Shown here in pieces: positions 11,212-37,240 of a stretch of 64,000 nucleotides of DNA. Made by a program: the position numbers and the translations under genes. Every line of letters starts with the position of its first letter. Position 1 is the first letter of the stretch. Source of the DNA: Thermodesulfobacteriota bacterium (GTDB lineage: Bacteria > Desulfobacterota > BSN033 > UBA1163). The DNA lies in contig JAOAHX010000001.1 of NCBI GenBank assembly GCA_026415035.1, positions 124,001 through 188,000 of the forward strand. Direction: 5' to 3'. The notes under the pieces are model-generated. The model saw nothing but the letters and a program-made list of their open reading frames with translations, did no database searches and was not told where the DNA came from.

Positions 11212-11248
11212 CTCCCTTTTCCTTCGAAGGCGGTGTTTGAAACAGAAA

Positions 11249-11277
11249 TTTAACGCCTCCTTAACGATCAGGTAACA
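11249..11277 (+). promoter_or_regulatory. Putative Pho box of the glycan operon
   Basis: Three heptamers in 11-bp register on the plus strand: TTTAACG, CTTAACG and GGTAACA. A GTATGA hexamer follows at about 11286-11291 as a possible -10. It points away from the phn operon, so the two divergent operons seem to have separate boxes. Confidence 0.55.
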
Positions 11278-11332
11278 ATCTTCGAGTATGAGGAAAAAAG
11301 ACGACGAAAGAATCCTTGGGAGAGGAAGGGCG

Positions 11333-12289: not shown

Positions 12290-12306
12290 CCGGAAGGTGA
12301 CTTTCA

Positions 12307-13161
12307 ATGAATTTGGTCGTCGTGATCCAAACGCGCTCTGGCTCGACCCGGTTCCCGGGAAAGGTGCTGCTCCCCCTGCTCGGAAAACCCCTCTTCGTCC
12401 GGATGGTGGAGCGGGTCCGACAATCGACCCTGAGCCCCCGGGTCGTGGTCGCCACGACCTGGCTTCCTGAGGACGATGTCATCTCACGGATCTGCGAACA
12501 GGAAGGGCTTGAATGCTTCCGAGGCCATCCCACCGACCTCTTGGACCGCCACTATCAGGTTGCCCTCGAACTTCAGGCCGACGCCGTGGCCAAGATCCCT
12601 TCCGATTGCCCCCTGATCGACCCGGCCGTCATCGATCGGGTCCTGAACTTCTATATCGGCCATGAAGGATCCTTCGACTATGTGAGCAATCTCCACCCTC
12701 CGAGTTACCCGGATGGAAACGACGTCGAGGTCATGTCCTTCAATGCCCTTGAGACCGCTTGGAGAGAGGCCGAGAGGGATTTCGAGCGGGAACACACGAC
12801 CCCCTTTCTGTGGGACCAACCCGAACGGTTCCGGATCGGAAACATCTTCTGGGAGACCGAACTCGATTACTCGGCCACCCACCGCTGGACGATCGACTAT
12901 GAAGAGGACTATCTTCTGATCCGGGAGATCTTCGAAACCCTCTACCCTAAAAATCCAAAATTCAGCCTCTATGAAATTCTCGAGCTTCTGGATCGGCAAC
13001 CCCAATTACGCTCCCTCAATCGCCAATATCACGGGGAGACGTGGATGAGGCGCCATCTTGGAAGTCTCAGGACCCTCTCTACCGGTTCAAGCCGGGAGAC
13101 GGGAAAGGCGCCTTTAAATTCATCCCCCTTGCCCTGGAAAGGGACAGAGAGGAGTCCTTGA
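12307..13161 (+). CDS. SpsF-type cytidylyltransferase (CMP-sugar acid activation)
   Basis: 284 residues with the CMP-Kdo/CMP-NeuAc synthetase-like fold. The N-terminal IQTRSGSTRFPGKVLLPLLGKP is the nucleotide-binding loop of the SpsF family; IPSDCPLIDP holds the metal-binding Asp, and HRWTIDYEEDY is the family C-terminal motif. With a NeuB-like synthase in the same operon, activation of a 2-keto-3-deoxy sugar acid with CTP is the simplest reading. It begins 17 bp after the transferase. The C-terminal 35 residues are low-complexity and may be dispensable. Confidence 0.82.
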   Translation: MNLVVVIQTRSGSTRFPGKVLLPLLGKPLFVRMVERVRQSTLSPRVVVATTWLPEDDVISRICEQEGLECFRGHPTDLLDRHYQVALELQADAVAKIPSDCPLIDPAVIDRVLNFYIGHEGSFDYVSNLHPPSYPDGNDVEVMSFNALETAWREAERDFEREHTTPFLWDQPERFRIGNIFWETELDYSATHRWTIDYEEDYLLIREIFETLYPKNPKFSLYEILELLDRQPQLRSLNRQYHGETWMRRHLGSLRTLSTGSSRETGKAPLNSSPLPWKGTERSP

Positions 13162-13164
13162 TCG

Positions 13165-14028
13165 GTGGAAGCATCGTTGTTTCCTTCCCCTCCCTCTTCA
13201 AGAAAAGCCCTCCTCACCGAGGAGGAGATCCGATCGCTTCGGGAACGGTCCTACCAGGTGAGACGATATGTCCTGGAGATGGCGACAAGGGGCGGCTGTT
13301 TTGTCGGGGCCGCCTTCTCCTGCGTGGACCTCTTGGTCTACCTCTATTCACGATTCTTGAGGATTTCAAAGGAGCTTCTGGACGATCCAAACCGGGACTA
13401 CTTCTTCTTGTCGAAAGGTCATGCCGTGGCCGCTCTCTATGGGGTCCTTGCGGTGGTCGGCCTGATGGATCCCCGACGTCTCGGGAATCATCTGAAACCC
13501 CATGACGTGATCTATTGGCACCCCAACCGGGCCGTTGCCGGGATCGAATTCCATTCAGGCTCGTTGGGCCACCTCCTGCCGGTCGGCGTGGGTGTGGCCA
13601 TCGATTGCAAATTGAGGCGTCAGAAGAACCGGGTCGTCGTGCTCCTGGGCGACGGAGAGTTGAACGAGGGGTCCAATTGGGAGGCCTGCCTGATTGCCCA
13701 AGCCTACCGGCTCGACAACCTGATCTTGGTGGTGGACCGAAACGGATTCCAGGCCAACGCCCGAACCGAAGCGTTGATCCCTCTGGACCCCCTCGAGAAA
13801 AAGTTCCAGGCCTTCGGGCTTTCAGAGACGACCATCGATGGTCACAACTTCGTCGAAATGGAGAGGGTCTTTGCCGAAATCCCCTTCGACCCGGGGATGC
13901 CCAATGTGGTGATTGCTGAAACGGTCCGGGGCAAGGGAGTCCTCCGTCTGGAAGAGAGAGTCGATCGATGGTTCTGCCAATTCACCCCCGAAGAGGCGGA
14001 GGGATTTCTCGAGGAGCTCGAACGATGA
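13165..14028 (+). CDS. Transketolase N-terminal half (thiamine diphosphate domain)
   Basis: 287 residues corresponding to the TPP-binding part of transketolase. The motif GDGELNEGSNWEA with RNGFQANAR is the metal/TPP site, and KGHAVAALYG holds the conserved catalytic His. The start is GTG, 3 bp after the previous stop. The other half is the next gene, with a 4-bp overlap. Split transketolases of this kind occur in nucleotide-sugar clusters and could transfer a two-carbon unit to extend a sugar; the true substrate is unknown. Confidence 0.87.
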   Translation: MEASLFPSPPSSRKALLTEEEIRSLRERSYQVRRYVLEMATRGGCFVGAAFSCVDLLVYLYSRFLRISKELLDDPNRDYFFLSKGHAVAALYGVLAVVGLMDPRRLGNHLKPHDVIYWHPNRAVAGIEFHSGSLGHLLPVGVGVAIDCKLRRQKNRVVVLLGDGELNEGSNWEACLIAQAYRLDNLILVVDRNGFQANARTEALIPLDPLEKKFQAFGLSETTIDGHNFVEMERVFAEIPFDPGMPNVVIAETVRGKGVLRLEERVDRWFCQFTPEEAEGFLEELER

Positions 14029-14927
14029 ACTACGAGGCCTTCCTGACGGAATGGACCCTTACCGACGAACGCTTCGTGGTGCTGACGGCTGAGAACCGGG
14101 CCGCCATCCGGGGCCTTCCGAAGAGGCTCGGGAGCCGTTTCATCGATACCGGCATCACCGAACAGGCCCTGGTCGGCGTGGCCGCAGGCCTTGCCCTCCG
14201 AGGCAGGATTCCCATCGCCCATGGATTGGCCTCCTTTTTGACGCTCCGGGCCTATGAATTCATCCGGACCGATGTCGGATTGGCCAACTTACCGGTAAAA
14301 CTCGTGGGGGGTATCCCGGGCTTTCTTTCCGAGGCCAACGGTCCGACCCATCAAGCCCTGGAAGATGTCGGCCTCATGCGCACGATCCCCAACCTGATCG
14401 TCTTCTGCCCGGGCGACGAAGAGGACATGCGGCTCGGGCTTCAGGTGCTCCTCTTCCATCCGTCTCCCTGCTATGTCCGATTCAACCCCAATCGCCCAGT
14501 CCTCGACCACACCCCCTTCGAGCTTGGAAAGGCGGAGGTCATCGCAGAGGGGTCCGAGGTCACCCTCTTCGTCTATGGCATGCTCTTAGAACAGGCTTTG
14601 CAGGCCAAAGAGCTCCTCGAAGCCCAAGGGAGGTCGGTCGGGTTGGTCAATGTGAGAACCGTCAAACCCCTCGACGAGGAAACCTTCCTGAGGATCGCCC
14701 GAGACACTGCCATGATCGTCACCCTGGAGGACCATTTCTTGACCGGGGGGCTCTTCTCGGCCCTCTCCGAACTTTTGGCGAAACACGGCCGATCCTGCCG
14801 GTTGCTGCCCCTGGCCCTGGAGGAGAGATGGTTTCAACCCTGCCTGCTTCCCGATCTTCTCTATCAGGAGGGGTTTGCAGCCGAACAGATCGCCCAGAAA
14901 ATCCTCCGTGCCTTAAGGAGCGCTTAA
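14025..14927 (+). CDS. Transketolase C-terminal half (pyrimidine-binding and C-terminal domains)
   Basis: 300 residues. FIDTGITEQALVGVAAGLAL contains the conserved Glu that activates thiamine diphosphate, GPTHQALEDVGLMRTIPN is the usual transketolase/DXS segment, and the C-terminal domain has VYGMLLEQAL and VNVRTVKPLD. The ATG at 14025 forms an ATGA junction with the N-terminal half, consistent with a two-subunit enzyme. An ATG at 13968 lies in the upstream gene and is rejected. Confidence 0.87.
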   Translation: MNYEAFLTEWTLTDERFVVLTAENRAAIRGLPKRLGSRFIDTGITEQALVGVAAGLALRGRIPIAHGLASFLTLRAYEFIRTDVGLANLPVKLVGGIPGFLSEANGPTHQALEDVGLMRTIPNLIVFCPGDEEDMRLGLQVLLFHPSPCYVRFNPNRPVLDHTPFELGKAEVIAEGSEVTLFVYGMLLEQALQAKELLEAQGRSVGLVNVRTVKPLDEETFLRIARDTAMIVTLEDHFLTGGLFSALSELLAKHGRSCRLLPLALEERWFQPCLLPDLLYQEGFAAEQIAQKILRALRSA

Positions 14928-17156
14928 ATGCCCAACAAGATCGGACACAACCCCGATTACCCCGACATTCGAGAATCCGACCGACTCTATCAGCGTGCCC
15001 TCGGCCTCATCCCCGGAGGGACGCAAACCCTTGCCAAGGGCCCCACTCAGTACGTAAGGGGGGTGGCCCCCAAATACCTCATCCGGGGCCGAGGCTGCCA
15101 TGTCTGGGATGTGGACGGAAACGAATACATCGACCTCAACATGGGGATCGGCCCGATCTCTTTAGGCTATGCCTATGAGGCGGTCGATCGAAGCATCCAA
15201 AAACAGTTGGAGGACGGGATCACCTTCTCGTTGATGCATCCTCTCGAGGTGGAGGTGGCGGAACAGATCCGGAGCCTCATCCCCAATGCCGAATCGGTCC
15301 GGTTTGGCAAGACCGGGGCGGAGGTGACCAGTGCGGCCATCCGTCTGGCCAGGGCCTATACGGGCCGAGACAAGGTCCTCTGTTGCGGATATCACGGATG
15401 GCATGATTGGTATATCAGCGTGACCGATCGAAACAAGGGGGTCCCCCGGCCCGTTCAAGGGCTCACCTATACCTTCAACTACAACGAGATCCAAACGCTC
15501 GAGGAGGCCCTGGATGAGGAGATCGCCTGTGTGATCCTCGAACCGGTGATGTTCGATCCCCCCAAGGACCGATTCCTTCACCGGGTGGCCGAGCTCTGCA
15601 AGAGGAGGGGGGCCCTTCTCGTCTTCGATGAGATGTGGACCGGCTTTCGGTTGGCCCTGGGAGGCGCCCAGGAATATTTCGGGATCGTCCCTGACCTGGC
15701 CTGTTACTCAAAGGCAGTCGCCAACGGCATGCCCCTCTCGATCTTAACGGGAGCAAAGGAGATCATGAGGCTTCTGGAGAGGGAGGTCTTCTTCTATACC
15801 ACCTTCGGCGGAGAGGCCCTCTCCCTGGCGGCTGCCCGGGCGACCCTGATGGAGATGGTGGCCAAAAACGTCCCCGTGTTTCTCGCCCGTCAGGGAAGGA
15901 AGCTCAAAGAGGGGTATAATCAGTTGGCCCAGTCCCTCAAGATGGATTACACCCGTTGCATCGGATACGATTGCCGGACGTTGGTCATCTTCGATGCCTC
16001 GGCCGGAGATCCCCTGGAGATGAAATCCCTGGTGCAACAGGAGATGATCAAAAGGGGAATCCTTTGGTCGGGATTTCATAACGTCTCCTTCTCCCACACC
16101 GATGAAGACATCGATCAGATCCTTCTGGCCTATCAGGAGGTCCTCCCCATCCTGAAGGAAGCCGTATCCCGAGGACGGGTGAAGGACCTTCTCAGGGGAG
16201 AGGTGGTCGAGCCGGTATTTCGGAAGACCAGCCAGTTTCACACCAAACCGAAGATGAAACCCGACCCGACCCCAAATCCCCCCTCGGCCAATCCTCCAAC
16301 GACCTTCCACACGGCCGGGGGCGGAGAAGGGACCTTTGTTAATAGGGCCATCCCCCCTCTCTTCTCCTTGGAGGGAAAGGTGGCGCTCGTCACCGGAGGA
16401 ACCGGCCTCCTCGGAAGAGAGCACTGCAGGGCCCTTTCGGAATTTGGGGCCCACGTGATCGTTTGCGACCTCCACCAGGACCGGTGCGACGCCCTTGCCA
16501 GGACCCTTCCGACCCCGTCGATCGGCATTCGGACAGATGTCACCGACCCCGATGCCCTCCGGGCCCTCTTAGACCGGATCCTCCTCGAATTCGGTCGGAT
16601 CGATATCCTGGTCAACAACGCTGCGGTCAACGATGCCTTCGAATCGCCCCTCCTGACAGGTGAGGACTCCGCCTTTGAGAATTATCCCCTCTCGCTGTGG
16701 CGGAGGATGATGGAGGTCAATGTGACGGGAGTCTTCCTCTGTTCCCAGATCCTTGGGGCACAAATGGTGAAGCAAGGGAAGGGAAGCATCATCAATATCG
16801 CCTCCACCTACGGCATGGTGGGACCGGACCAATCGATCTACCGATCTCCCGAGGGGAAACAGACCTTCTTTAAATCCCCTGCCTATGCCGCAAGCAAGGG
16901 GGCCATCCTCGCCTTCACCCGTTACCTGGCAACCACCTGGGGTCGTACCGGCGTCAGGGTTAACGCCTTGACGCCCGGTGGGGTGGAAAACGGCCAGGAT
17001 AACTTCTTCATCCAACAATATACCCTCAGGACACCCTTGGGCCGGATGGCCAGGGTGGACGATCTCAAAGGGGCGATCATCTTCCTGGCCAGCGATGCCT
17101 CAGGTTATATGACCGGCGCCAATCTCGTCGTCGATGGAGGTTGGACAGCCTGGTAG
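14928..17156 (+). CDS. Fusion of a class III aminotransferase and a short-chain dehydrogenase
   Basis: 742 residues. Residues 1 to about 430 are a glutamate-1-semialdehyde-aminomutase-like PLP enzyme (GKTGAEVTSAAIRLAR, YHGWHDWY, LVFDEMWTGFR and the presumed Schiff-base Lys in YSKAVANGMP). A Pro/Lys-rich linker of about 45 residues follows. Residues from about 478 are an SDR (VALVTGGTGLLG nucleotide loop, VNNAA, INIAS Ser, YAASKGA Tyr-x3-Lys, and LVVDGGWTAW end). The pair could oxidise a hydroxyl and aminate the ketone, or the reverse, within one polypeptide. The gene starts immediately after the upstream stop. Confidence 0.88.
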   Translation: MPNKIGHNPDYPDIRESDRLYQRALGLIPGGTQTLAKGPTQYVRGVAPKYLIRGRGCHVWDVDGNEYIDLNMGIGPISLGYAYEAVDRSIQKQLEDGITFSLMHPLEVEVAEQIRSLIPNAESVRFGKTGAEVTSAAIRLARAYTGRDKVLCCGYHGWHDWYISVTDRNKGVPRPVQGLTYTFNYNEIQTLEEALDEEIACVILEPVMFDPPKDRFLHRVAELCKRRGALLVFDEMWTGFRLALGGAQEYFGIVPDLACYSKAVANGMPLSILTGAKEIMRLLEREVFFYTTFGGEALSLAAARATLMEMVAKNVPVFLARQGRKLKEGYNQLAQSLKMDYTRCIGYDCRTLVIFDASAGDPLEMKSLVQQEMIKRGILWSGFHNVSFSHTDEDIDQILLAYQEVLPILKEAVSRGRVKDLLRGEVVEPVFRKTSQFHTKPKMKPDPTPNPPSANPPTTFHTAGGGEGTFVNRAIPPLFSLEGKVALVTGGTGLLGREHCRALSEFGAHVIVCDLHQDRCDALARTLPTPSIGIRTDVTDPDALRALLDRILLEFGRIDILVNNAAVNDAFESPLLTGEDSAFENYPLSLWRRMMEVNVTGVFLCSQILGAQMVKQGKGSIINIASTYGMVGPDQSIYRSPEGKQTFFKSPAYAASKGAILAFTRYLATTWGRTGVRVNALTPGGVENGQDNFFIQQYTLRTPLGRMARVDDLKGAIIFLASDASGYMTGANLVVDGGWTAW

Positions 17157-17210
17157 GGAGGTCGAGCCCGTCCCCTTTGTGACGAAAAAGGCAAAGGAGG
17201 TTATTTCGAG

Positions 17211-18143
17211 ATGCAAGGTCAACAGAGCGTTCGAAAGGTCAAGGTGGGTCACCGGTGGGTCGGAGAGGGAGAGCCGGTCTTCGTCATCGCAGAGATCGGG
17301 ATCAACCACAATGGCTCCCTCGAGCTGGCCAAAAAGCTGATCGACGGCGCCCTCTTCGCTGGGTGCGACGCGGTGAAATTTCAGAAGAGGACTCCCGTCC
17401 TCTCGGTCCCGAAACATCAGTGGTTCGTCGAACGCGACACCCCCTGGGGCCGCATGACCTATATCGATTATCGACACAAGATGGAATTTGGTTGGGAAGA
17501 GTACCAAGAGATCGACCGATACTGTCGGAGCCGGGGGATCCTCTGGTTTGCCTCCTGCTGGGATGAGGTCGCGGTCGACTTCATCGAACAGTTCGATCCC
17601 CCCCTTCATAAGGTCCCATCGGCCTGTTTGACGGACCGATCCTTGCTCCTCCGGATGAGGCGGACCGGAAAACCGTTGATCCTCTCCACCGGGATGTCCA
17701 CCCAGGAGGAGATCGACGAGGCAGTGGCGTGGATCGGGACAGAGAACCTCCTCATCGCCCATTCGACCTCCTCCTACCCCTGCCGCCTGGAAGAGCTCAA
17801 TCTCCGGATGATTCTGACCCTCAAGGAGAAGTATCCCCTCAACCCCATCGGTTATTCGGGTCACGAAACCGGCCTTGCCCCGACCTGGGCCGCGGTGACG
17901 ATGGGGGCCTCCTTTGTGGAAAGGCACATCACCCTTGACCGGGCGATGTGGGGAACGGATCAGGCCGCCTCCGTCGAGGTCATCGGGTTTCATCGGCTCG
18001 TCTCCAATATCCGGGATATCGAAAGATCGTTAGGGGATGGGATCAAAAGGGTCTATGAGAGTGAGCAGGAGGTGATGAAGAAACTTCGACGTCCCCCTGC
18101 CTGGGTTCACGAGAGAAAGGAATCCGAGGTGGCTTTTCAATGA
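17211..18143 (+). CDS. NeuB-like sugar acid synthase without the C-terminal SAF domain
   Basis: 310 residues of the N-acetylneuraminate synthase TIM barrel, which condenses phosphoenolpyruvate with an aldose to form a nonulosonate-type acid. Visible are VIAEIGINHNG, DAVKFQKR, LSTGMST, HSTSSYP, GYSGHE and ERHITLDR (metal-binding His). The chain stops after the YESEQEVMKKLR connector, where typical NeuB proteins carry the antifreeze-like SAF domain. In dimers that domain caps the partner active site, so its absence is notable. An ATG with GGAGG upstream starts the gene, and it overlaps the SMR gene as ATGA. Confidence 0.85.
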   Translation: MQGQQSVRKVKVGHRWVGEGEPVFVIAEIGINHNGSLELAKKLIDGALFAGCDAVKFQKRTPVLSVPKHQWFVERDTPWGRMTYIDYRHKMEFGWEEYQEIDRYCRSRGILWFASCWDEVAVDFIEQFDPPLHKVPSACLTDRSLLLRMRRTGKPLILSTGMSTQEEIDEAVAWIGTENLLIAHSTSSYPCRLEELNLRMILTLKEKYPLNPIGYSGHETGLAPTWAAVTMGASFVERHITLDRAMWGTDQAASVEVIGFHRLVSNIRDIERSLGDGIKRVYESEQEVMKKLRRPPAWVHERKESEVAFQ

Positions 18144-18481
18144 CCCCGAAGGACGGAGGGCACGCCCTCGGGGCCTGGGGCTTCCTCTTTCTGTCAGGCC
18201 TTTTTGAGGTCGGTTGGATCCTCAGCCTCAAATTTACCCAGGGCTTCACCCGACCTCTCCCCATCCTTTTCTATGCCCTTTGCGGCGCAGGGGCGGCCTA
18301 CTTCCTCTCCTTGGCCCTGCGCTCTCTGCCGTTAAGCCTCTCCTATGCCATCTGGATGGGAATGGGCATCCTCGGAAGCCACCTCTTCGGAGTCCTCTTC
18401 CTCAAAGAGCCCTGGTCCTTCCTCCAGGGCCTCTTTATGTTGATGATCCTCGGAGGGCTCATCGGGTTGAGGTTCTCATAG
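18140..18481 (+). CDS. Small multidrug resistance (SMR) family transporter
   Basis: 113 residues with four membrane helices. The first helix has the essential Glu in LSGLFEVGWILSLKFTQGF, and the third has the SYAIWMGMG motif usual in EmrE/SugE/Gdx proteins. GFTRPLP after helix 1 resembles guanidinium exporters (Gdx) more than EmrE. It is coupled to the NeuB-like gene by a 4-bp overlap, so a role in moving a product or lipid-linked intermediate is also possible. No guanidine riboswitch was recognised upstream. Confidence 0.8.
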   Translation: MTPKDGGHALGAWGFLFLSGLFEVGWILSLKFTQGFTRPLPILFYALCGAGAAYFLSLALRSLPLSLSYAIWMGMGILGSHLFGVLFLKEPWSFLQGLFMLMILGGLIGLRFS

Positions 18482-18483
18482 CC

Positions 18484-18714
18484 TCAGAGAAGGGTCTGCG
18501 GGGCCTTCCACGCCCTCCTTCCTGCAAAGTAGATGGCACTGAAACCCATCAGGCCGTAAAGAAGCGGCCTCTCTTGCAGGAATAACCAGGCGATGCCCGA
18601 GCCGATGGCCAAAACCCCGAAGAGAAGGGTGAGGAAGGTGATGGTCTCCTCCCACTTGGCCAGCCAGTAGGTCAATTTTGTCTTGAAGGGCGAGGGAAAT
18701 ACAGCCTGCTTCAT
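18484..18714 (-). CDS. Small two-helix membrane protein
   Basis: 76 residues. After MKQAVFPSPFKTKLTYWLAK there are two hydrophobic stretches (ITFLTLLFGVLAIGSGIAWLFL and LLYGLMGFSAIYFAG) and a short basic tail. The start at 18714 is supported by GGGAGG five bases upstream; an upstream ATG at 18777 lacks a site and overlaps the glycosyltransferase gene. I do not recognise the family. It is the third gene of the operon with the PHP protein and the GT21 glucosyltransferase, and its stop is 2 bp from the converging SMR gene. Confidence 0.6.
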   Translation of the reverse strand: MKQAVFPSPFKTKLTYWLAKWEETITFLTLLFGVLAIGSGIAWLFLQERPLLYGLMGFSAIYFAGRRAWKAPQTLL

Positions 18715-18757
18715 AAAACCTCCCTGATCCATCTTAAGGGGCCTTTTTGCTTTCCTT

Positions 18758-19969
18758 TCATGACCCTCCAACCGCAATTCGTCCCCCTAAACGATATCTC
18801 CATGGCCGGATTCCTTTGGGCGATTTTGGGGATAAGACCGTATTGGGCCCGATCGCGAACCGTTTCCCCCGCCAGACCACCGTGTCATTGGCGATGGAGA
18901 GGAACCAGATCAGCCCGATCACAAGATCTTTGATGGGGGAGAGGCCGTAGGCGAGGGGGGAGAGAGAAACTCCGATCCTCCTTCCAAGGTGATAGTCTCC
19001 CAAGGTCTTAAGGAGGCTCGTCAGCCCGATCACCAAAAAGGCCCTTTTTGAGGGACCGTCCAGGAGGAGCGCGGCCATGGAGAGGAGGACGGGGTTCCCG
19101 ATCAGCTCCGAGAGATATTTGTAACCCAGGATCTTCCAACGCATCTTCCCCCATCTCAAGTGTCGGTTCATGAAGCGTCTCAATCCCCAGTACTCGTTTA
19201 CGTTGCTGATCAGGTGGTTGGAGAGGACCACTTTCTGCCCCCGTTCCTTGATCTTCATCCCGATGAAATGGTCCTCGGCCAGGATATCCTTGAAGGCGCT
19301 CAACCCACCCAGGGCTTCAAGGTCGGATTTCCGCAGGAGCATCGATTTGCCGATGACGCAGGGGATTTTCAAATACTTCTGTAAAAAACAGACGTTTCCG
19401 AGAATGAAAGAATTCAGATGAAGGTTTTCGAAAAGGGAGCCGAGGGTCTTGGCGCCGACCCCTTTGATCAGGTTGGTCACCAGACCCGTCTGGGGGTCCT
19501 TCATGGGCTGGACGATGCTCTTGAGATAGTCCCGGTCGACCATCACATTGCTGTCGCTGATCAGCAGATAAGGGTAGCGGGCCTTTCGATAGGCGGGAAG
19601 CATGTTGTTCACTTTCGGGTTCCACCCCTCCTCACAGGCCTCGATGGTGATGGAGATCTCCCGGTCCGGGAATTTCTCCTTGATCTTTTGGACCACCCGA
19701 CGGGCCGGATCGTTGGGATCCTGGAGGGAAAAGAGAATTTCAAATTGGGCGTAATCCTGCTCGCAAAAGCTGGCCAGATTATCGAAGAGGTGGTCATCCA
19801 GACCGTTCAAGGGCTTGAGGATCGAGATGGGAGGAGCAAAAGGAGGCTCCTCTGACCCTTGTCCCGGTCGTTGCGGTCTTGGGACATAGGAACGAACGGC
19901 GAGGATCTGGAGGCCAAATCCCGCGATCCCGAGAAAGGTAAATCCACAGATGATCCAGAAGAACTCCAT
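18758..19969 (-). CDS. GT21 family lipid glucosyltransferase (ceramide glucosyltransferase / HpnI-like)
   Basis: 403 residues, a processive-type GT-A enzyme anchored by an N-terminal helix (WIICGFTFLGIAGFGLQIL) and several C-terminal helices. The GT21 marks are SILKPLNG, SDSNVMVDRDYL (metal-binding DxD-like), EDHFIGMKI and RHLRWGKMRW (the (Q/R)xxRW motif). Relatives glucosylate ceramide, diacylglycerol-type lipids or, as HpnI, hopanoids. With a predicted Pho box on the operon, replacing phospholipids by glycolipids under phosphate limitation is a reasonable inference. It lies 16 bp after the PHP gene. Confidence 0.82.
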   Translation of the reverse strand: MEFFWIICGFTFLGIAGFGLQILAVRSYVPRPQRPGQGSEEPPFAPPISILKPLNGLDDHLFDNLASFCEQDYAQFEILFSLQDPNDPARRVVQKIKEKFPDREISITIEACEEGWNPKVNNMLPAYRKARYPYLLISDSNVMVDRDYLKSIVQPMKDPQTGLVTNLIKGVGAKTLGSLFENLHLNSFILGNVCFLQKYLKIPCVIGKSMLLRKSDLEALGGLSAFKDILAEDHFIGMKIKERGQKVVLSNHLISNVNEYWGLRRFMNRHLRWGKMRWKILGYKYLSELIGNPVLLSMAALLLDGPSKRAFLVIGLTSLLKTLGDYHLGRRIGVSLSPLAYGLSPIKDLVIGLIWFLSIANDTVVWRGKRFAIGPNTVLSPKSPKGIRPWRYRLGGRIAVGGS

Positions 19970-19985
19970 CGCCTCTCCTTCGGCC

Positions 19986-20690
19986 TCACCAGGGAGTGCC
20001 GTTGCGAAAAAGGGTGATGGCCACTCCCCGATTGGATCGGATGCATTGCTTGACCGCCTGGACGTCCTTCTCGCAGTCGAGCATCGTCTTCCAGGAATAG
20101 AGATGCCTCGGCCGGTGAAAATCGCTGCCCGCGATATATGGGAATTTCTTCAGGCTGATGACGTTGAAGACATCGTCCCGGTTGGCGATCTCCCAGGCGT
20201 CGATATAAGGGGCGTACCTTTTTCGGTGGTGCCAGAGGTAGAGGGTGTCCAGGGCCAGCAATTCCGAGGAGTGATGGGGGTGGCAGGCGATGATGAGGGC
20301 GTCCTGCCTTTTGGCCTCAAGAAAGATCCTTTCGAATTCCCATTCGGCGGAAATGAACGATTTGAGATCGATCAGCAGGACATGGGCCGCCTGATCGGAG
20401 GAGAAGGAGCTCTTGGTGATCTCGACGCCCGGAAGGACGAGCAATCCATAGCGATCCCATGCCCGTTTCGCCTCTTCCCGGATGTGCTCGAGATAGGCGT
20501 CGAAATTCTCCTCTCGGACAGAGAACCTGAAGCGATGGGCAAGTTTCCCATAGGCGCTCTTTCCGTTGAACACATGATCTGTGATGGCAATGACATCGAA
20601 CCCGGCCTGACCGAAAAGGTCGATCACCCTTCTCAATTCAATCGAACCGTCCGAATACCTCGTATGGATATGGAAGTCGCAGAGCAGCAT
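19986..20690 (-). CDS. PHP domain metal-dependent phosphoesterase
   Basis: 234 residues with all four PHP motifs: DFHIHTRYSDG at residue 5, AITDH, PGVEIT and HPHH, with the closing GSDFHRP. The family hydrolyses phosphoesters with two or three metal ions. Its substrate here is unknown; as the first gene before a lipid glucosyltransferase it could remove a phosphate head group or recycle a phosphorylated intermediate. The ATG at 20690 is fixed by the HxH motif close to the N-terminus, with AGGG upstream. Confidence 0.82.
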   Translation of the reverse strand: MLLCDFHIHTRYSDGSIELRRVIDLFGQAGFDVIAITDHVFNGKSAYGKLAHRFRFSVREENFDAYLEHIREEAKRAWDRYGLLVLPGVEITKSSFSSDQAAHVLLIDLKSFISAEWEFERIFLEAKRQDALIIACHPHHSSELLALDTLYLWHHRKRYAPYIDAWEIANRDDVFNVISLKKFPYIAGSDFHRPRHLYSWKTMLDCEKDVQAVKQCIRSNRGVAITLFRNGTPW

Positions 20691-20713
20691 CTGACCCTAT
20701 TTTGCGTGAACAT

Positions 20714-20731
20714 TGTTACAGAATGATTAAA
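20714..20731 (-). promoter_or_regulatory. Putative Pho box before the PHP/GT21 operon
   Basis: On the minus strand TTTAATC and TGTAACA are spaced 11 bp apart, the layout of a single two-repeat Pho box. Only about 23 bp separate it from the start codon, so a usual -10 would place the transcript start almost on the ATG. The call rests on two good repeats only. Confidence 0.4.
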
Positions 20732-20817
20732 AAATGATAGATTTTGTGTGAAGGGAGAGGGATATTTTTAAATGAATTAGAGGGGATACAAAGTCGGCCG
20801 ATAGGCTGGAGCGGAGG

Positions 20818-21546
20818 TCACGGCCGGAACTCATCATCGGTCAGACCGGCATCGAGAACGAGCTGCTCATAGCCATAGTCACCCATGAGCCTCTCTTCCC
20901 AGTCGAAGGCCACTACTCGGATGGGAACCTTCGTCTGGGTATCGATGGCCATGAGGGTCCGATAGCAATAATAGCCATAGCGGGGATCTCTTGGAAAGCG
21001 TAGGTCAATAACCAAAGCCCTTCGGCCATAAACCTGCTCTTCTTTCAGGAGTTCATAAGCCACCTGCCCGGAGGCCCAGCCCCTTCTGAGGTTCTCTCCG
21101 AAAAGCCTTACGAGAAAACCCAGACCGGCATCGGTGATGGGGTGTCGGCTTCCCTGCATGGCAAGACGGCCGAGGGGGTTGAGGTGGAGGGTCACCGTGC
21201 CGAAGGTCCCTGGCTCGCGAACGAGGATTCGGTTCTTGTTCCAGCCCTCGACATAATAGATCTCCCTTCCTTTCCCGGGTCCCTCGATCCACTGCATGTA
21301 AACCTTGAAAGGCTTCTTGAATTTGAACCGGACGGTCTCCTTTGACTTTAACCAATCCTTGATCCGCTCCTGCTTATGGAAGATCGCGGTATAGGACTCG
21401 GTCCGCTCAAGGATCTCCTCGGCTTGACCTAACCACTCCTTTAAACAGACCGCGTGCCCAGTGGAAAAGGTCGAGAACAGGTCGAATAAGACCGATAAAA
21501 CAAGCAGGGGCATTCGTCCTCCCTGCCAGAGGGATCGAGGGCTCAT
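20818..21546 (-). CDS. Secreted DUF1571-like (LolA-like fold) protein
   Basis: 242 residues with a signal peptide (basic N-region, then MPLLVLSVLFDLFSTF, cleavage near GHA-VC). The mature part reads as a curved beta-sheet: KDWLKSKETVRFKFKKPFKVYMQW, YVEGWNKNRILV, and RALVIDLRFP, with the family-typical IDTQTKVPIRVVAFDWE. A lipid- or envelope-related role is inferred from the LolA-like pattern. A second start at 21513 has a better ribosome site (GGGAGG) but would lose the basic N-region, so 21546 is kept. A well-formed Pho box precedes it. Confidence 0.68.
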   Translation of the reverse strand: MSPRSLWQGGRMPLLVLSVLFDLFSTFSTGHAVCLKEWLGQAEEILERTESYTAIFHKQERIKDWLKSKETVRFKFKKPFKVYMQWIEGPGKGREIYYVEGWNKNRILVREPGTFGTVTLHLNPLGRLAMQGSRHPITDAGLGFLVRLFGENLRRGWASGQVAYELLKEEQVYGRRALVIDLRFPRDPRYGYYCYRTLMAIDTQTKVPIRVVAFDWEERLMGDYGYEQLVLDAGLTDDEFRP

Positions 21547-21606
21547 AGGAGATTTTGGCTCCTTGGATCTGGGGTGGCCCGGTATCGGCAAAATAGTATG
21601 AGAGGG

Positions 21607-21637
21607 AGATGTCAGGAGGGTTACAAAAGGGTTATAA
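21607..21637 (-). promoter_or_regulatory. Putative Pho box and -10 before the DUF1571-like gene
   Basis: The minus strand shows TTATAACCC, TTGTAACCC and CTGACATCT in exact 11-bp register. A TACTAT hexamer follows at 21593-21598, nine bases downstream, where a PhoB-dependent -10 is expected. About 50 bp of leader would remain before the start codon. This is one of the better formed boxes in the window. Confidence 0.6.
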
Positions 21638-21683
21638 TTTTATGACGCCGAGAGAGATTCCCTTCACTGAATCTTCATTCAAT

Positions 21684-28423: not shown

Positions 28424-28463
28424 TTTAACCAAAATTTAAGGCCTCCTTCACCAAATTGTAACA
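28424..28463 (+). promoter_or_regulatory. Putative four-repeat Pho box before the zinc-ribbon/HMA pair
   Basis: TTTAACC (28424), TTTAAGG (28435), CTTCACC (28446) and TGTAACA (28457) are in perfect 11-bp register on the plus strand. GATATT at about 28471-28476 could be the -10. The transcript would then begin near 28483, almost at the GTG start codon. Confidence 0.55.
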
Positions 28464-28484: not shown

Positions 28485-28829
28485 GTGGAATCCTTCAAAA
28501 TTATAGGGCTTCGATGCCCAAGATGTGATGCCAACGTCATCTATAAATTTGGGAGGTTGAAAACAGGGGAACAAAGGTATCGTTGTGTACTCTGCGGGGT
28601 GCAATTCACTCAAAAGACCACGGTTAAAAAAAGCATCCCCCGCCCCACCTGCTCCATCTGTGGGAGGAAGATGCACCTCTACAAGGAAGACGACCGCTCG
28701 TGGCGATTTCGATGCTCTTTTTATCCTGTATGTAAAACCTATCGGAAGATGATGAAAGGGGAGGCGGAATATGGGGTATTACCTCCATCAGGTACCGGGC
28801 AGATTAAGGATCAGAACCCCACTCTTTAA
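28485..28829 (+). CDS. Double zinc-ribbon protein
   Basis: 114 residues with two four-Cys units. The first (CPRCDANVIYKFG...YRCVLCG) resembles the ribbon of transposase-like and InsA-type proteins; the second (CSICGRKMHLYKE...RCSFYPVC) resembles topoisomerase-type zinc fingers. No catalytic domain follows, so it is not a transposase. The start is GTG with no clear ribosome site, fitting a short or absent leader after the Pho box. Its 3' end overlaps the next gene by 59 bp in another frame. Function unknown; DNA or RNA binding is possible. Confidence 0.65.
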   Translation: MESFKIIGLRCPRCDANVIYKFGRLKTGEQRYRCVLCGVQFTQKTTVKKSIPRPTCSICGRKMHLYKEDDRSWRFRCSFYPVCKTYRKMMKGEAEYGVLPPSGTGQIKDQNPTL

Positions 28830-29144: not shown

Positions 29145-30392
29145 TTATAGGAGGAAGGTACCAGATCTCCTCTTAATCAGAAAAGAGTAGAATTTAGCAA
29201 CCGGGGTCGCCTTTCGTTCGAGGGTTTCGAAATCGACCCGGTAAAGCCCGAACCGGGCATCCATACCCTTTAGCCATTCATAATGGTCCATGAGGGACCA
29301 ATAAAAATAACCCCGGATATCCATCCCCTTTTTCAGGCAACCCTCTAAGATATCGAGATGGCTTTTGATGTACCAATCCTTCTTCCTTCGGTCAGCGGTC
29401 GCGATGCCATTTTCGGTGATCATCACCGGAAGCCCAAAGGTCGAAGCCTCCCTCAGGACTTGTTCGAGGCCTCGCGGATAGATCTCCCAGCCCATATCGG
29501 TTAACCCATTTCCCTCTCTATCCTCGTATCGGAGGGCCACCCCCATGCGACAAAAGGGGTTGAATTGGAGGTGGATGCGCGTATAGTAATTCACCCCGAT
29601 GAAATCCAATTTCCCGCGAAGGGGAAGATCAACCTCAATCTTTTTGAAAATCGGGAAACGAAGCCTTAAACGGCCAATCCGTATGGCCTCCAATAAAGAG
29701 AGGTTGTAATAGCGGTGGGCCACCCTGGCCAAGAATCGATCGAGAGGACTCCATGAGCGGTACGGAGCGAAGACCGCCATGTTTTGAGCCAATCCGACCT
29801 CGGCCTGGGCGTTCCTCCCGTGGAGAATGTCGTAGGCCTCTGCATGGGCAAGAAGGAGGTTTACGTTGGCATGAACATAGGAAGTCTGGTCCTTGACCCC
29901 GGGAGGCATACACCCATCCAGGTAACCACCCAGTAAGAGGACATTGGGTTCGTTGAAGGTGATCCAGTAACGAACCTCCCCGAAAGCCTCGACGATGTGC
30001 TTCACATATTCTGCAAATTTCAAGATGGATTCCTCTCGATGCCAAGGAAATTTTTCAAGAAACCACCTCGGGTGGGTGAAATGATGAAGGGTGATAACCG
30101 GCTCAATCTGCTCTTCTCGAAGGATTCGAACGATCTCCAGGTACCTGCCGAGCGCCATATCATCCCAGCGATCCTGGGCAGGCTGGATTCGACTCCACTC
30201 GATCGAAAACCGATAGGCGTTGACCCCGATCTCTTTGAGGAGTTTTAAATCCTCTTTGTATAAATGATAATGGTGGGTCACGTCCGGATGTGCCCGAAGC
30301 CTCTCGTCCCAGGTCGCCCAATCAGCAAAAGGGGAGCCCTCGATCTGGAAGGCGGAGGTGGCTACTCCCCAGAGGAATTTCCGTTCTCCCAT
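29145..30392 (-). CDS. GH1 family beta-glycosidase
   Basis: 415 residues of the GH1 (beta-alpha)8 barrel, a little shorter than the usual 440-470. The acid/base Glu is in YWITFNEPNV and the nucleophile Glu in VMITENGIA; ATSAFQIEGS, LHHFTHP and WSLMDHYEW are substrate-site segments. No signal peptide, so cytoplasmic. Beta-glucosides are likely substrates, but the exact sugar is unknown; glucolipid turnover is conceivable given the neighbours. GGAGG stands eight bases before the ATG. It converges on the HMA gene (2-bp gap) and diverges from pstS. Confidence 0.88.
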   Translation of the reverse strand: MGERKFLWGVATSAFQIEGSPFADWATWDERLRAHPDVTHHYHLYKEDLKLLKEIGVNAYRFSIEWSRIQPAQDRWDDMALGRYLEIVRILREEQIEPVITLHHFTHPRWFLEKFPWHREESILKFAEYVKHIVEAFGEVRYWITFNEPNVLLLGGYLDGCMPPGVKDQTSYVHANVNLLLAHAEAYDILHGRNAQAEVGLAQNMAVFAPYRSWSPLDRFLARVAHRYYNLSLLEAIRIGRLRLRFPIFKKIEVDLPLRGKLDFIGVNYYTRIHLQFNPFCRMGVALRYEDREGNGLTDMGWEIYPRGLEQVLREASTFGLPVMITENGIATADRRKKDWYIKSHLDILEGCLKKGMDIRGYFYWSLMDHYEWLKGMDARFGLYRVDFETLERKATPVAKFYSFLIKRRSGTFLL

Positions 30393-30490
30393 CGCCTTGC
30401 CTCCGGTTGAGAAATATCCGCGGAAACGATGCTTAGAGCAAGATAGAAGGTAACGCCTCTCTTCCCATTTATCAAATCGGAAATCCCAAA

Positions 30491-30519
30491 TTTAACAGAG
30501 TTGTAACATGGTTGTAATG
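30491..30519 (+). promoter_or_regulatory. Putative distal Pho box of the pst operon
   Basis: TTTAACA, TGTAACA and TGTAATG lie at 30491, 30502 and 30513, exact 11-bp steps. TATTAAT (30526-30532) is a fitting -10. The transcript would carry a leader of about 130 bases before pstS. Confidence 0.6.
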
Positions 30520-30608
30520 AGCTCCTATTAATATTGACGCATCCAGGGTCGCTTCTGGAAGAGAAAAATGATTTCGTCGACGAAGGAGGTGAAGGGGCGT
30601 CGCAAGAT

Positions 30609-30637
30609 TGTAACAGAAATGTAACAAATTTGTAACA
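30609..30637 (+). promoter_or_regulatory. Putative proximal Pho box of the pst operon
   Basis: Three identical TGTAACA heptamers stand at 30609, 30620 and 30631, the cleanest series in the window. CTAATT/TAATTA at about 30646-30652 is a possible -10, giving a very short leader beginning near the AGGAGG of pstS. Confidence 0.7.
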
Positions 30638-30667
30638 AAACACGACTAATTAAAAAGGAGGTAAAAA

Positions 30668-31702
30668 ATGAAAGGGTCTTTAACAATGAAGATTTTGAAG
30701 GTTTTCGGAGTGGGGATCGCCTTAGGGCTGGTCATCGGATGGATGGCCATTGGAGGTCATCCCGGTCAGGCCTCTGCTCAGGAGAAGATCATCAAGATCG
30801 ATGGGTCGAGCACGGTCTATCCCATCACCGAGGCCGTGGCCGAAGAGTTCCAAAAAATGAAAAAAGGAACCATCAAGGTGACCGTCGGGATTTCTGGCAC
30901 GGGCGGAGGATTTAAGAAGTTCACCCGAGGGGAAACCGACATCTCCAACGCCTCCAGGCCCATCGTCAAGAAGGAGATGGAGGCTGCCAAGGAGGCGGGC
31001 ATTGAATTCATCGAATTGCCGATCGCCTATGATGGTCTGGCCGTGATGGTCAACCCGAAAAACACCTGGGTCACCTCGATGACGGTGGCCGAACTGAAAA
31101 AGATCTGGGAGCCCGCGGCAGAGGGAAAGATCGTGAAATGGAATCAAGTCAACCCCGCCTGGCCAGACGTTCCTTTGAAACTCTACGGACCTGGGGTCGA
31201 TTCGGGAACGTTCGACTATTTCACGGAGGCCATCGTCGGAAAATCGAGGTCAAGCCGGGGTGACTTTACCGCCAGTGAGGACGATAACGTCCTCGTCCAG
31301 GGCATCGCCTCCGATCGGGGGGCCCTCGGGTTTTTCGGCTACGCCTACTACGCAGAGAACCCGGACAAGTTGAAACTCGTGGCGATCGACGGCGGAAGGG
31401 GTCCTGTCCTTCCCTCCGAAAAAACGGTCATGGACGGAACCTACACCCCCCTCTCGAGGCCGATCTTCATCTATGTGAACAAGAAGTCCGCCGAACGCCC
31501 TGAGGTAAAGGAGTTTATCGAGTTTTACCTCAGGAACGCCTCCAAGCTGGTCAAACAGGTCAAATATATTCCTCTCCCCGAGAGGGCCTATAAACTGGCC
31601 GAAGAGCGCTTCGCCAGGAAGGTGACCGGGACCGTTTTCGGTGGAGAACCCAAGATCGGGATGAAGATCGAAGAACTGCTGAAGCTCGAGGAGAAAAAAT
31701 AG
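30668..31702 (+). CDS. pstS: Phosphate ABC transporter substrate-binding protein PstS
   Basis: 344 residues: a signal peptide ([20 protein letters not shown], cleavage near ASAQ) and a PstS fold. [40 protein letters not shown] and [10 protein letters not shown] carry the Ser/Thr/Asp residues that bind phosphate. It captures Pi in the periplasm for PstCAB. AGGAGG precedes the ATG at 30668; an ATG six codons later is also possible. Two tandem Pho boxes lie upstream. Confidence 0.96.
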
Positions 31703-31706
31703 CTTC

Positions 31707-32600
31707 GTGGCGACCAGAAACCCGATCCGAAAGATCAAGGAGAGGGCCATTGAGAGTAGTCTGCTCCTCTGTGCCCTCTCCTCCATTTTTGTCACCCTGG
31801 GCATCGTCTTCATCCTCATCTACGAAGCCGCGGGTTTTTTCAGGGACGTATCCCTCCGTGAATTTCTCACCGGCAAACAGTGGACCCCGCTCTTCGCCCA
31901 GCCCAAATTCGGCATCCTCCCCCTTGTGACGGGGACCCTGCTGGTCACCTCCATCGCGGTCTCCGTGGCCTTGCCCATCGGCCTGATCGTGGCCGTCTAC
32001 CTAAGCGAATACGCTCCATTCAGGGTCCGGGAGATCGCCAAGCCCATCCTCGAAATCCTTGCGGCCGTCCCAACGGTCGTCTACGGGTATTTTGCCCTGC
32101 TCTTCCTCACGCCCATTCTCCAAGAGTTCATCCCCAACCTCTCTGGGTTCAATGCCCTCAGCCCCGGCATCATCATGGGGATCATGATCATCCCTTACGT
32201 AAGCTCCGTAAGCGAAGACGCCATGAAGGCCGTCCCCATGCATATCCGGGAAGGTTCCTATGCGATGGGCGCAACCAAATTTCAGACCGCCTTCCGTGTC
32301 GTCATCCCTTCCGCCTTTTCGGGGATCGCGGCCGCGTTCATCATCGGCATCTCGAGGGCGATCGGGGAGACCATGGTCGTGGCCATCGCCGCAGGCATGA
32401 TGCCCAATTTGACGTTCAACCCCCTCGAACCCATCCAGACCCTCACGGCTTACATCGTCGGCGTCAGCCTCGGAGACGTTCCCCACGGGACGCTCGAATA
32501 CAAGACGATCTTCGCGGCGGGGATCACGCTCTTTTTCATGACCCTTTTCCTCAACATTTTGGGCTTCTGGTTCCGAAGAAGGATCCGGGAAGCCTACTGA
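31707..32600 (+). CDS. pstC: Phosphate ABC transporter permease PstC
   Basis: 297 residues with six membrane helices and the permease loop EGSYAMGATKFQTAFRVVIP. It forms the phosphate channel with PstA. SRAIGETMVVAIAAG is conserved in PstC. The start is GTG, 4 bp after pstS, with the pstS tail GAGGAG upstream acting as ribosome site. Confidence 0.94.
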   Translation: MATRNPIRKIKERAIESSLLLCALSSIFVTLGIVFILIYEAAGFFRDVSLREFLTGKQWTPLFAQPKFGILPLVTGTLLVTSIAVSVALPIGLIVAVYLSEYAPFRVREIAKPILEILAAVPTVVYGYFALLFLTPILQEFIPNLSGFNALSPGIIMGIMIIPYVSSVSEDAMKAVPMHIREGSYAMGATKFQTAFRVVIPSAFSGIAAAFIIGISRAIGETMVVAIAAGMMPNLTFNPLEPIQTLTAYIVGVSLGDVPHGTLEYKTIFAAGITLFFMTLFLNILGFWFRRRIREAY

Positions 32601-32612
32601 GGTCAGATCAGG

Positions 32613-33542
32613 ATGACCCCTCAAACCCAGGACGTCGAACAGATCCGGAGAACAATCGCCTATAATAAATTCCGGGACTATGTCTTCGCGATCGTCGGGC
32701 TCCTCTGCACCCTGATCGGTTTTGTCCTCCTCTTCACGTTGATCATCGATCTCTTCCTCGATGGCCTCCCGAGACTGAGCTGGTCTTTTTTCACCTCCTA
32801 CCCCTCGCGATTCCCCGAGAAGGCGGGGATCCTCTCGGCCTGGGTCGGCACCACCCTGGTGATGGTCGTGACGGCGGCCACGGCCGTCCCTCTGGGGATC
32901 GCCACGGGCATCTATCTCGAAGAATATGGCCGAAAGAACTGGTTCACCCACCTGATCGAGATCAACATGAATAACCTTGCGGGCGTCCCTTCGATCATCT
33001 ACGGCCTCTTGGCGTTGGGACTCTTCGTCTATTTTTTAAAATTTGGGGAGAGCATTCTGACCGGCGGATTGACCCTGGGCCTTCTGATTCTGCCGTTGGT
33101 GGTGATCGCCACCCGGGAGTCGATCCGGGCGATCCCCAACTCCATCCGGGAGGCCTCCTATGCTTTAGGCGCCACGAAATGGCAGACCGTCAAGGATCAC
33201 ATCCTCCCTTACTCCATGGGAGGGATCCTCACGGGGATCATCATCGGCCTCTCCCGGGCCATCGGGGAGACCGCTCCCATCATCACCGTGGGCGCCCTCA
33301 CCTTCATCGCCTTCTTACCTTCCTCTCCAGTCACGTCAGACTTCCCGTTTCTCTCCTTCAAATGGCTATTCGACCCCTTCACGGTCATGCCCATCCAGAT
33401 GTTCAACTGGGTGTCCCGGCCGCAGAAGGAGTTTCACCTCAATGCAGCGGCCGCCGGGATCATCCTCCTTCTCATGACGCTGGCCATGAATGGATTGGCC
33501 ATTTATTTGAGGCACCGCTTCCGCAAGCGAATCAAATGGTGA
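32613..33542 (+). CDS. pstA: Phosphate ABC transporter permease PstA
   Basis: 309 residues with six membrane helices. [21 protein letters not shown] is the EAA loop, and [19 protein letters not shown] is a PstA signature. [18 protein letters not shown] is also typical. It lies 12 bp after pstC and ends 20 bp before the chosen pstB start, all in one operon. Confidence 0.94.
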
Positions 33543-33562
33543 AAAACAGGGGGGAAGCCACC

Positions 33563-34333
33563 ATGACATCCGAACCGCTGAAGGCCGAGGTAAAAAACTT
33601 GAATTTTTTCTATAATCACCTCCAGGCCCTCAAAAACATCCACCTCTCCATCGCCGAAAAGAAGATCACCGCCCTGATCGGCCCCTCGGGTTGCGGCAAG
33701 ACGACCTACCTCCGTTGCTTCAACCGGATGCACGATCTCTACCCGAACAATCGCTACGAGGGAGAGATCCTCCTTTACCCGGACCGGCTGAATATCCTCA
33801 GCCCGAAGATCGACCCGATCGAGGTGCGCATGCGGATCAGCATGGTCTTTCAGAAGCCGAATCCCTTTCCCAAGACGATCTTCGAAAATGTCGCCTATGG
33901 GTTGAGGGTCCGAGGGGAGAACCGGAAATCCTATCTCGAAGAGAAGGTCGTCAAGGCCCTGAAGCAGGCCGCCCTTTGGGAGGAGGTCAAGGACCGGGTT
34001 CACGACCTGGCCTTCAACCTCTCCGGGGGGCAGCAGCAGAGGCTTTGCATCGCCCGGGCTTTGGCGACGGATCCGGAGATCCTCCTCTTTGACGAACCGA
34101 CCTCCGCCCTCGACCCGACCGCCACCTCCAAGATCGAGGAGCTGATCATCCAGCTCAAGAAAGACGTCACCATCATCATCGTCACCCATAACATGCAACA
34201 AGCGGCACGGGTCTCCGATTACACCGCCTTCATGTATTTGGGGGAGATCATCGAATACGATAAGACCGAGAAGATCTTCACCCACCCTTCCCAAAAATTG
34301 ACCGAGGACTATATCACCGGTCGGTTCGGTTAG
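33563..34333 (+). CDS. pstB: Phosphate ABC transporter ATP-binding protein PstB
   Basis: 256 residues. Walker A is GPSGCGKTT, followed by the PstB-specific [27 protein letters not shown] is the Q-loop region; signature [16 protein letters not shown]; Walker [14 protein letters not shown]. The ATG at 33563 follows GGGGGAAG and is preferred. An in-frame ATG at 33536 overlaps pstA and lacks a site. Confidence 0.96.
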
Positions 34334-34356
34334 ACGAGGCCTAAGAGGGAGAGCGT

Positions 34357-35037
34357 ATGATCACCGAAACCCAATTCCAGAAAGAACTCCAGGAACTGAA
34401 GCAGCAGCTGCTCAAGATGGCCACCCTGGTCGAGGTCACCATCCACGATGCGGTCCAATCCCTCGTCAAGCGGGACTCGGACCTCGCCCACCAGATCTTC
34501 GAACGGGAAAAACAGATCAACGAGATGGAACTGGTGATCGACGATATGTGCTTGAAACTCCTCGCCCTGAGGCAGCCCATGGCGGTCGACCTCCGCTTCA
34601 TCACCTCGGCGATGAAGATCACCACCGACCTCGAACGGATGGGCGATCAGGCGGTCAACATTGCGGAGCGCGCCCTCTCCCTCAACCAGGAGCCCCAGCT
34701 CAAACCCTACATCGACCTTCCCCGGATGGCGGAGATCGCCCAGTCGATGGTGAAGGACGTCCTGGATGCCTTTGTCAACCGTGACGTGAAGCTGGCCCGC
34801 TCGGTCTGTGAAAGGGACGATCTGGTGGACGGGCTGAACGACCAGGTCGTGCGAGAGCTCCTCACCTACATGATGTCCGACCCCAAAACCATCACCCGGG
34901 CGGTCCACCTCATGATCGTGGCCCGCTGTCTGGAGCGGATCGCGGACCACGCCACCAACATCGCCGAGGACGTCATCTTCATGGTCGACGCCAAGGTGAT
35001 CAAACACCACGCCGATGCCAAAGAAAGAGGGGCATAG
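34357..35037 (+). CDS. phoU: Phosphate transport regulator PhoU
   Basis: 226 residues, two PhoU three-helix repeats, each with the acidic metal-binding pattern (ERMGDQAVNIAERA near residue 90 and ERIADHATNIAEDV near 195). PhoU links Pst transport activity to the PhoR sensor kinase and shuts the Pho response when Pi is plentiful. phoB and phoR are not in this window. AGAGGGAG precedes the ATG. Its last 23 bp overlap the release-factor-like gene. Confidence 0.95.
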   Translation: MITETQFQKELQELKQQLLKMATLVEVTIHDAVQSLVKRDSDLAHQIFEREKQINEMELVIDDMCLKLLALRQPMAVDLRFITSAMKITTDLERMGDQAVNIAERALSLNQEPQLKPYIDLPRMAEIAQSMVKDVLDAFVNRDVKLARSVCERDDLVDGLNDQVVRELLTYMMSDPKTITRAVHLMIVARCLERIADHATNIAEDVIFMVDAKVIKHHADAKERGA

Positions 35038-35989: not shown

Positions 35990-36013
35990 AAAGGATGCCC
36001 CTGGAGAAAAGGA

Positions 36014-37108: not shown

Positions 37109-37240
37109 CCGCCTCTCTCCGCGCTACCCCCGACGATCGAAGGGAACTTTCCTGTGGCATTCTCCAGCAATATTTGTATAATAATTGGGCGGGAAAATAA
37201 AGGGTTCTCATCGGGGGAAGCAAAAAAGAGGGAGGATCAC

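Follow-up and report, generated by a model that had tools for sequence, protein, structure and literature searches.

A gene for a PHP-family phosphoesterase and a gene for a GT21 glycosyltransferase stand behind a Pho-type promoter in the window, the 64,000-nucleotide stretch of DNA analysed here (Table 1). We put the chances at about even that the pair is a phosphate-starvation lipid-remodelling operon. A sequence-only reading had proposed a phosphoesterase-GT21 operon at this position, and the Pfam matches of the two proteins agree. That reading ended the unit at 20735, which is too short, as the Pho-type site extends to 20753. Behind the site come PHP, GT21 and a 97-aa ORF, all on the reverse strand. 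The PHP stop and the GT21 start are 16 bp apart, and the 97-aa ORF (18777-18484) overlaps the 3' end of GT21 (19969-18758). A family profile search with the 97-aa protein gave no match; tblastn matched it at 40-51% in four related loci (L004, L005, L006, L009).

Table 1. Features of the window and, in the last row, of a second locus (L115) of the same genome. PWM, position weight matrix of the Pho-type site.
Feature	Position	Strand	Evidence
Pho-type site ahead of operon 11288-18481	11238..11277	+	PWM 33.3
Small membrane-type ORF, 97 aa, start uncertain	18484..18777	-	No family match
GT21 glycosyltransferase, 403 aa	18758..19969	-	PF13506 1.2e-48
PHP phosphoesterase, 234 aa, TM0559-like	19986..20690	-	PF02811 1.3e-7
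Pho-type promoter ahead of PHP	20714..20753	-	PWM 33.7 bits; alignment with relatives
DUF1571 protein	20818..21591	-	PF07608 5.5e-42
Pho-type site ahead of DUF1571 gene	21608..21647	-	PWM 22.9 bits
Highest-scoring Pho-type site, ahead of zinc-ribbon ORF 28485-28829	28424..28463	+	PWM 34.7
GH1 beta-glycosidase, divergent from pstS	29145..30392	-	PF00232 7.6e-80; PDB 1vff 1.1e-84
Pho-type repeats between GH1 and pstS	30491..30648	.	PWM 18.0, 16.5, 14.7 bits
pstS, pstC, pstA, pstB, phoU	30668..35037	+	PF12849, PF00528 twice, PF00005, PF01895
SDR, serine-palmitoyltransferase-like and GNAT genes	L115:358-3678		AOS gene between SDR and GNAT-type

Promoter. A 40-bp PWM was built by expectation maximisation on 62 PHP promoters from other genomes (L007-L069 minus L064), with the window and its nearest relatives (L004-L006) excluded. 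Its consensus has four half-sites at an 11-bp period (TTTAACA/TTTAA/TTAATA/TGTAAC), and in many species a -10-like TATNAT lies behind them. The window site likewise has four half-sites at this period (CTTCACA/ATCTATC/TTTAATC/TGTAACA). The earlier description as a two-repeat Pho box was thus right about the type of site and wrong about the number of repeats. The maximum over 40 Markov-1 simulations of 64 kb each was 7.1 bits, compared with 33.7 bits at 20714-20753, and the held-out PHP promoters of L004, L005 and L006 scored 27.2, 36.4 and 27.5 bits. Outside the training set, the motif was found ahead of pstS in 5/7 cases (it is absent from the pstS of L030 and L041) versus 4.6% of 4000 random stretches, and ahead of PHP-kinase genes in four genomes. 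None of five control stretches of the window genome has it (L002, L003, L086, L106 and L114, the last on contig C5 with the genome's second PstS-like gene). Since the motif is common to pstS and PHP-kinase promoters and missing from the controls, the box belongs to a Pho regulon. The PHP promoter and the pst genes of the window have Pho-type repeats in common, with several sites between GH1 and pstS scoring 13-18 bits.

Conservation. GT21 lies directly downstream of PHP in 65 of 66 loci (L004-L069) from Nitrospirota, Desulfobacterota and other deltaproteobacterial MAGs, counting L054, where the frame is broken, and L066, where a contig edge ends it. The remaining locus, L064, has the Pho motif and no GT21; L074, a further stand-alone-looking PHP, has neither. 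Pairwise distances of PHP and GT21 are correlated (r 0.77, 63 loci), as expected for two genes inherited together. In a phylum sample of 247 genomes, all six with a stand-alone PHP have a close GT21 (Fisher 2.8e-10, uncorrected for kinship). Before this count we dropped the PHP matches of G111 and G237, which are kinase fusions only, the weak one of G071 in a 153-aa frame, and GT21 matches weaker than 1e-100, including that of G215 (1.7e-97). Of the nine genomes of the sample that have the close GT21, three have it without PHP and without a nearby Pho site. No plasmid records carrying the PHP were found. Both the pairing of a phosphoesterase with a lipid glycosyltransferase and its Pho linkage, seen in the PWM site and the same motif ahead of pstS, are supported as first proposed.

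At one GT21 locus with neither PHP nor Pho site (L154; G048 C26, 3652-6361), the close GT21 is divergent from a GT28/MGDG-synthase-like ORF, called by eye from its N-terminus. An alkaline-phosphatase-like gene lies behind GT21 in Thermodesulfovibrio-type loci, including L034, L044, L048, L052 and L059. The family occurs in 13/66 PHP loci, which widens the Pho link. The Pho motif precedes 2/8 of the alkaline-phosphatase genes of PHP loci; where the gene directly follows GT21, as in several of the Thermodesulfovibrio-type loci, it may share the GT21 promoter.

The PHP protein. The window PHP matches PDB entry 2anu (1.5e-61), the Thermotoga maritima protein TM0559. Its predicted structure (mean pLDDT 88) aligns with 2anu at a Foldseek E of 6.6e-27 and a TM score of 0.87, with 42% identity in the fold match, far better than with RNase AM, PolC or histidinol phosphatase. 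Nine residues (H7, H9, D14, H39, E90, H103, H137, D190, H192), which we take to be the usual PHP metal ligands, are invariant in 40 aligned PHP sequences. For the solved PHP relatives of known activity, the substrates are presumably nucleic acids, nucleotides or histidinol phosphate, and we know of no lipid activity in the PHP family. A search of the open-licence literature found no PHP protein tied to glycolipid synthesis.

In 13 Verrucomicrobiota loci we found a PHP domain 44-47% identical to the window PHP. Ten of them have 391-436 aa in frame upstream of the domain; in two others the frame is still open where the locus ends, and in one it is broken. Among five of these fusion proteins that were scanned, all have PHP and four match MGDG_synth (PF06925), which identifies the partner as a GT28/MGDG-synthase-like enzyme. 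By its sequence this partner is unrelated to GT21 and is also a lipid glycosyltransferase. No glycosyltransferase of the MGDG_synth type was found in the window genome.

The same genome encodes a second type of PHP protein about 1.3-3.3 kb before the window start (L107:8724-10679, G000 C1). It has 651 aa, joins PHP to a receiver and a histidine kinase, and keeps the PHP ligands. It adjoins phoB/phoR-type genes, has a Pho-type site upstream (18.3 bits) and has relatives in G045, G111 and G237. The protein is possibly a phosphate-linked sensor, and its presence shows that the PHP family extends beyond lipid enzymes.

Other Pho-linked genes. The wider unit takes in the divergent GH1/pst operon (29145-35037) and the Pho sites at 11238, 21608 and 28424. 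The Pho-boxed GH1 belongs to the PHP-GT21 set: GH1 is present in 48/66 related loci and lies directly ahead of PHP on the same strand in 33/59 loci with room for it. The closest solved relative of the window GH1 is the beta-glycosidase BGPh (1vff), which comes from Pyrococcus horikoshii according to the portion of PMC8517440 consulted. The available text of PMC4687101 reports that this enzyme is membrane-associated and favours long-alkyl glucosides.

The Pho-boxed operon at 11288-18481 (+) encodes an epimerase-like protein, a CMP-sugar transferase, a split transketolase, an aminotransferase-SDR fusion, a NeuB-type synthase and an SMR transporter. Its gene content suggests a phosphate-controlled pathway for an acidic sugar. 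This operon is convergent with the PHP-GT21 operon, with partial synteny in L004/L109. Divergent from the site at 11238 is a gene for a phosphonate-binding protein (PF12974; 10187-11185, -), with an ABC ATPase gene (9356-10129) behind it. Downstream of the site at 28424 come two ORFs, one for a 114-aa zinc-ribbon protein (28485-28829) and one for an HMA-like protein (28771-29142). By eye they resemble gene families that occur in 4 and in 5 PHP-GT21 loci of Nitrospirota. Downstream of phoU, an 864-aa ORF (35522-38116, +) carries a c-di-AMP cyclase (DAC) domain.

Proposed mechanism. At low phosphate, a PhoB-type regulator would bind the four-repeat box, as we infer from its sequence, and turn on PHP and GT21. 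Cytosolic PHP would strip the phosphate-containing head from a membrane lipid and release phosphate, most likely by converting a phospholipid or phosphatidate to diacylglycerol (DAG). As a family, GT21 enzymes use UDP-sugars at the inner membrane face, and there GT21 would add a sugar to the freed lipid, its putative acceptor. The Pho-boxed GH1 would probably trim or rearrange the resulting beta-glycolipid. PHP would thus fill the job of PlcP of alpha- and gammaproteobacteria. A broader proposal, to which we give somewhat less than even chances, is that TM0559-like PHPs constitute a previously undescribed class of intracellular lipid phosphoesterases that feed DAG or ceramide to starvation glycosyltransferases, a non-orthologous replacement of PlcP joined by GH1 as a membrane-acting glycolipid editor. 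Its scope would be Nitrospirota and Desulfobacterota, with Verrucomicrobiota included as single-chain PHP-glycolipid-synthase fusions.

Two alternatives concern the GT21 acceptor. The GT21 assignment itself is clear: the Glyco_transf_21 domain scores 165.3 bits (cut-off 21.7), and D139, D233 and RHxRW are invariant in 20 aligned relatives, catalytic Asp residues and a (Q/R)xxRW motif that we take to be the GT21 hallmark. The best NCBIfam match is the hopanoid enzyme model HpnI, and a GT21 acting only on hopanoids, independently of phosphate, was the alternative that the sequence-only reading set against its own proposal. This now seems very improbable. The score of 266.6 bits is below the 310-bit HpnI cut-off (TIGR03472), whereas 3/3 scanned HpnI-type proteins reach 452-505; no squalene-hopene cyclase (PF13243) was found in the 97%-complete genome; GT21 forms a clade separate from HpnI; and the Pho promoter ahead of the pair speaks against a phosphate-independent role. 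On the cyclase and the cut-off we reject hopanoid glycosylation for the window genome, barring a cyclase lost in assembly, and with the separate clade we reject HpnI as the identity of GT21. We draw on the GT21 tree only for the distinctness of its groups: the joins between them have weak support (56/25), and long branches come together.

A more serious alternative, though one we still consider unlikely, is that GT21 is a Pho-controlled ceramide glucosyltransferase making a glycosphingolipid. It would be fed by the genome's own serine palmitoyltransferase (SPT)/acyltransferase/reductase-like cluster, with PHP either dephosphorylating a phosphosphingolipid or merely co-regulated. The closest solved GT21 is a ceramide glucosyltransferase (5e-39). 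The AOS gene at L115 matches SPT best (NF047600, 568 bits, below the cut-off of 640; BioF 402), and it is flanked by SDR and GNAT-type genes. By description, this cluster resembles the bacterial ceramide-synthesis gene set as given in the parts of PMC11087976 and PMC11334938 consulted, and judged on sequence it likely serves ceramide-type synthesis in the window genome. Such a cluster could supply the GT21 acceptor without any phosphoesterase. A GNAT relative occurs in 22/27 PHP-GT21 locus genomes, SPT-like genes adjoin GNAT in 18/20 loci, and Caulobacter makes a PhoB-dependent glycosphingolipid (PMC6445935, in the excerpt available). However, the near-complete genomes with the PHP-GT21 pair include three without GNAT (G007 98%, G179 97%, G203 96%), PHP and GNAT overlap in only 3/6 genomes of the phylum sample (p 0.16), and GNAT is found in 61/247 of its genomes, most of them without GT21. 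In G247 and G273 the SPT model had no match at E<=1e-100. These carriers, the GNAT genomes without GT21 and the SPT nulls indicate that ceramide from the GNAT cluster is not the sole acceptor. The verrucomicrobial fusion partner is a DAG-type glycosyltransferase by family, and Pgt prefers DAG, with both DAG and ceramide possible as acceptors (PMC3972451, in the sections consulted). We favour DAG as the probable acceptor of GT21, with ceramide also possible. It is also conceivable, but improbable, that PHP hydrolyses UDP released in the glycosyltransferase reaction, or some other small phosphate compound, relieving product inhibition and returning phosphate. Its partners are two unrelated UDP-sugar-type glycosyltransferases (GT21 and GT28-like), and solved PHP relatives include AMP/nucleotide-acting enzymes. 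Against this, we know of no PHP UDPase, UDP in the cytosol is normally recycled, and the plcP-GT21 operons, as a parallel case, suggest a role in acceptor supply.

Anoxic waters and sediments are rich in phosphorus-free glycolipids, whose genes are known mainly from Proteobacteria. If lipid remodelling is the function of the PHP-GT21 operon, this would provide a gene marker by which lipid change driven by phosphate could be traced in Nitrospirota, Syntrophia-type bacteria and Verrucomicrobiota. A PHP subfamily that is widespread, has a solved structure (2anu) and lacks an assigned function would also gain its first lipid role, and the one-polypeptide fusions would allow acceptor supply and glycosylation to be studied jointly.

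The operon can be compared with the known PlcP-Agt and PlcP-Pgt operons of Sinorhizobium, Agrobacterium, Mesorhizobium, SAR11 and Roseobacter. We searched for PlcP with one alphaproteobacterial query, which distant forms could escape, and in small samples: a PlcP-like gene (E<=1e-8) is present in 1/28 PHP-GT21 genomes (the window genome plus 27 locus genomes) versus 3/4 GT21 genomes without PHP. None of three Verrucomicrobiota genomes has one at this threshold. The window genome has a single weak partial match (E 5.3e-4) and no close relative of PlcP. The counts give a picture of PHP replacing PlcP. On two alphaproteobacterial plasmids, a calcineurin-type gene annotated 'UDP-2,3-diacylglucosamine diphosphatase' lies directly ahead of GT21, an order that fits the operons described in marine bacteria (PMC4796936, in the part available), where plcP lies ahead of glycosyltransferases of this kind. 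The GT21 proteins adjoining plcP in alphaproteobacteria are 25-27% identical to the window GT21 and fall in another clade. An E. coli-style Pho box matches at best 10-11/14 positions ahead of these plcP-GT21 pairs, too weak to claim, and 13/14 positions ahead of two S. fredii GT21 genes.

Individual proteins of the window each have a known counterpart. TM0559 is of the same PHP subfamily and fold as the window PHP. BGPh is archaeal, unlike the window GH1, and we know of no Pho link for it. Ceramide glucosyltransferase (PDB 26qf) is 33% identical to the window GT21 over 261 columns and has the acidic and RxxRW residues in common with it, but differs in partner genes and Pho control. The processive Pgt of A. 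tumefaciens and M. loti, likened here by description, has the same family and a lipid acceptor.

As a system, the window operon and the PlcP-Agt/PlcP-Pgt operons have in common a Pho-box promoter and a cytosolic phosphoesterase gene adjoining a lipid glycosyltransferase, which in the PlcP-Pgt systems is also a GT21. The window differs in its phosphoesterase, which has the PHP fold and not the calcineurin-like metallophosphoesterase fold of PlcP, in its phyla and in having GH1 in the set. The sequence-only reading held that the pair follows PlcP-Agt logic with different protein families. This is correct for the phosphoesterase and not for the glycosyltransferase, since Pgt of Agrobacterium and Mesorhizobium is already a GT21, and in Agrobacterium a Pho box is predicted ahead of pgt (PMC8231724 and PMC3972451, as far as the text was available). 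Its suggestion of an alternative route from phospholipids to glycolipids finds partial support in the Pho linkage, the conserved pair, the PHP-MGDG-synthase-like fusion and the lack of a close PlcP in the window genome. Operons that pair a phosphoesterase with a glycosyltransferase are already known, and so is glycolipid synthesis by a GT21 behind a predicted Pho box; the part that appears to be new is a PHP enzyme where PlcP would stand, together with its fusion to a second glycosyltransferase family.
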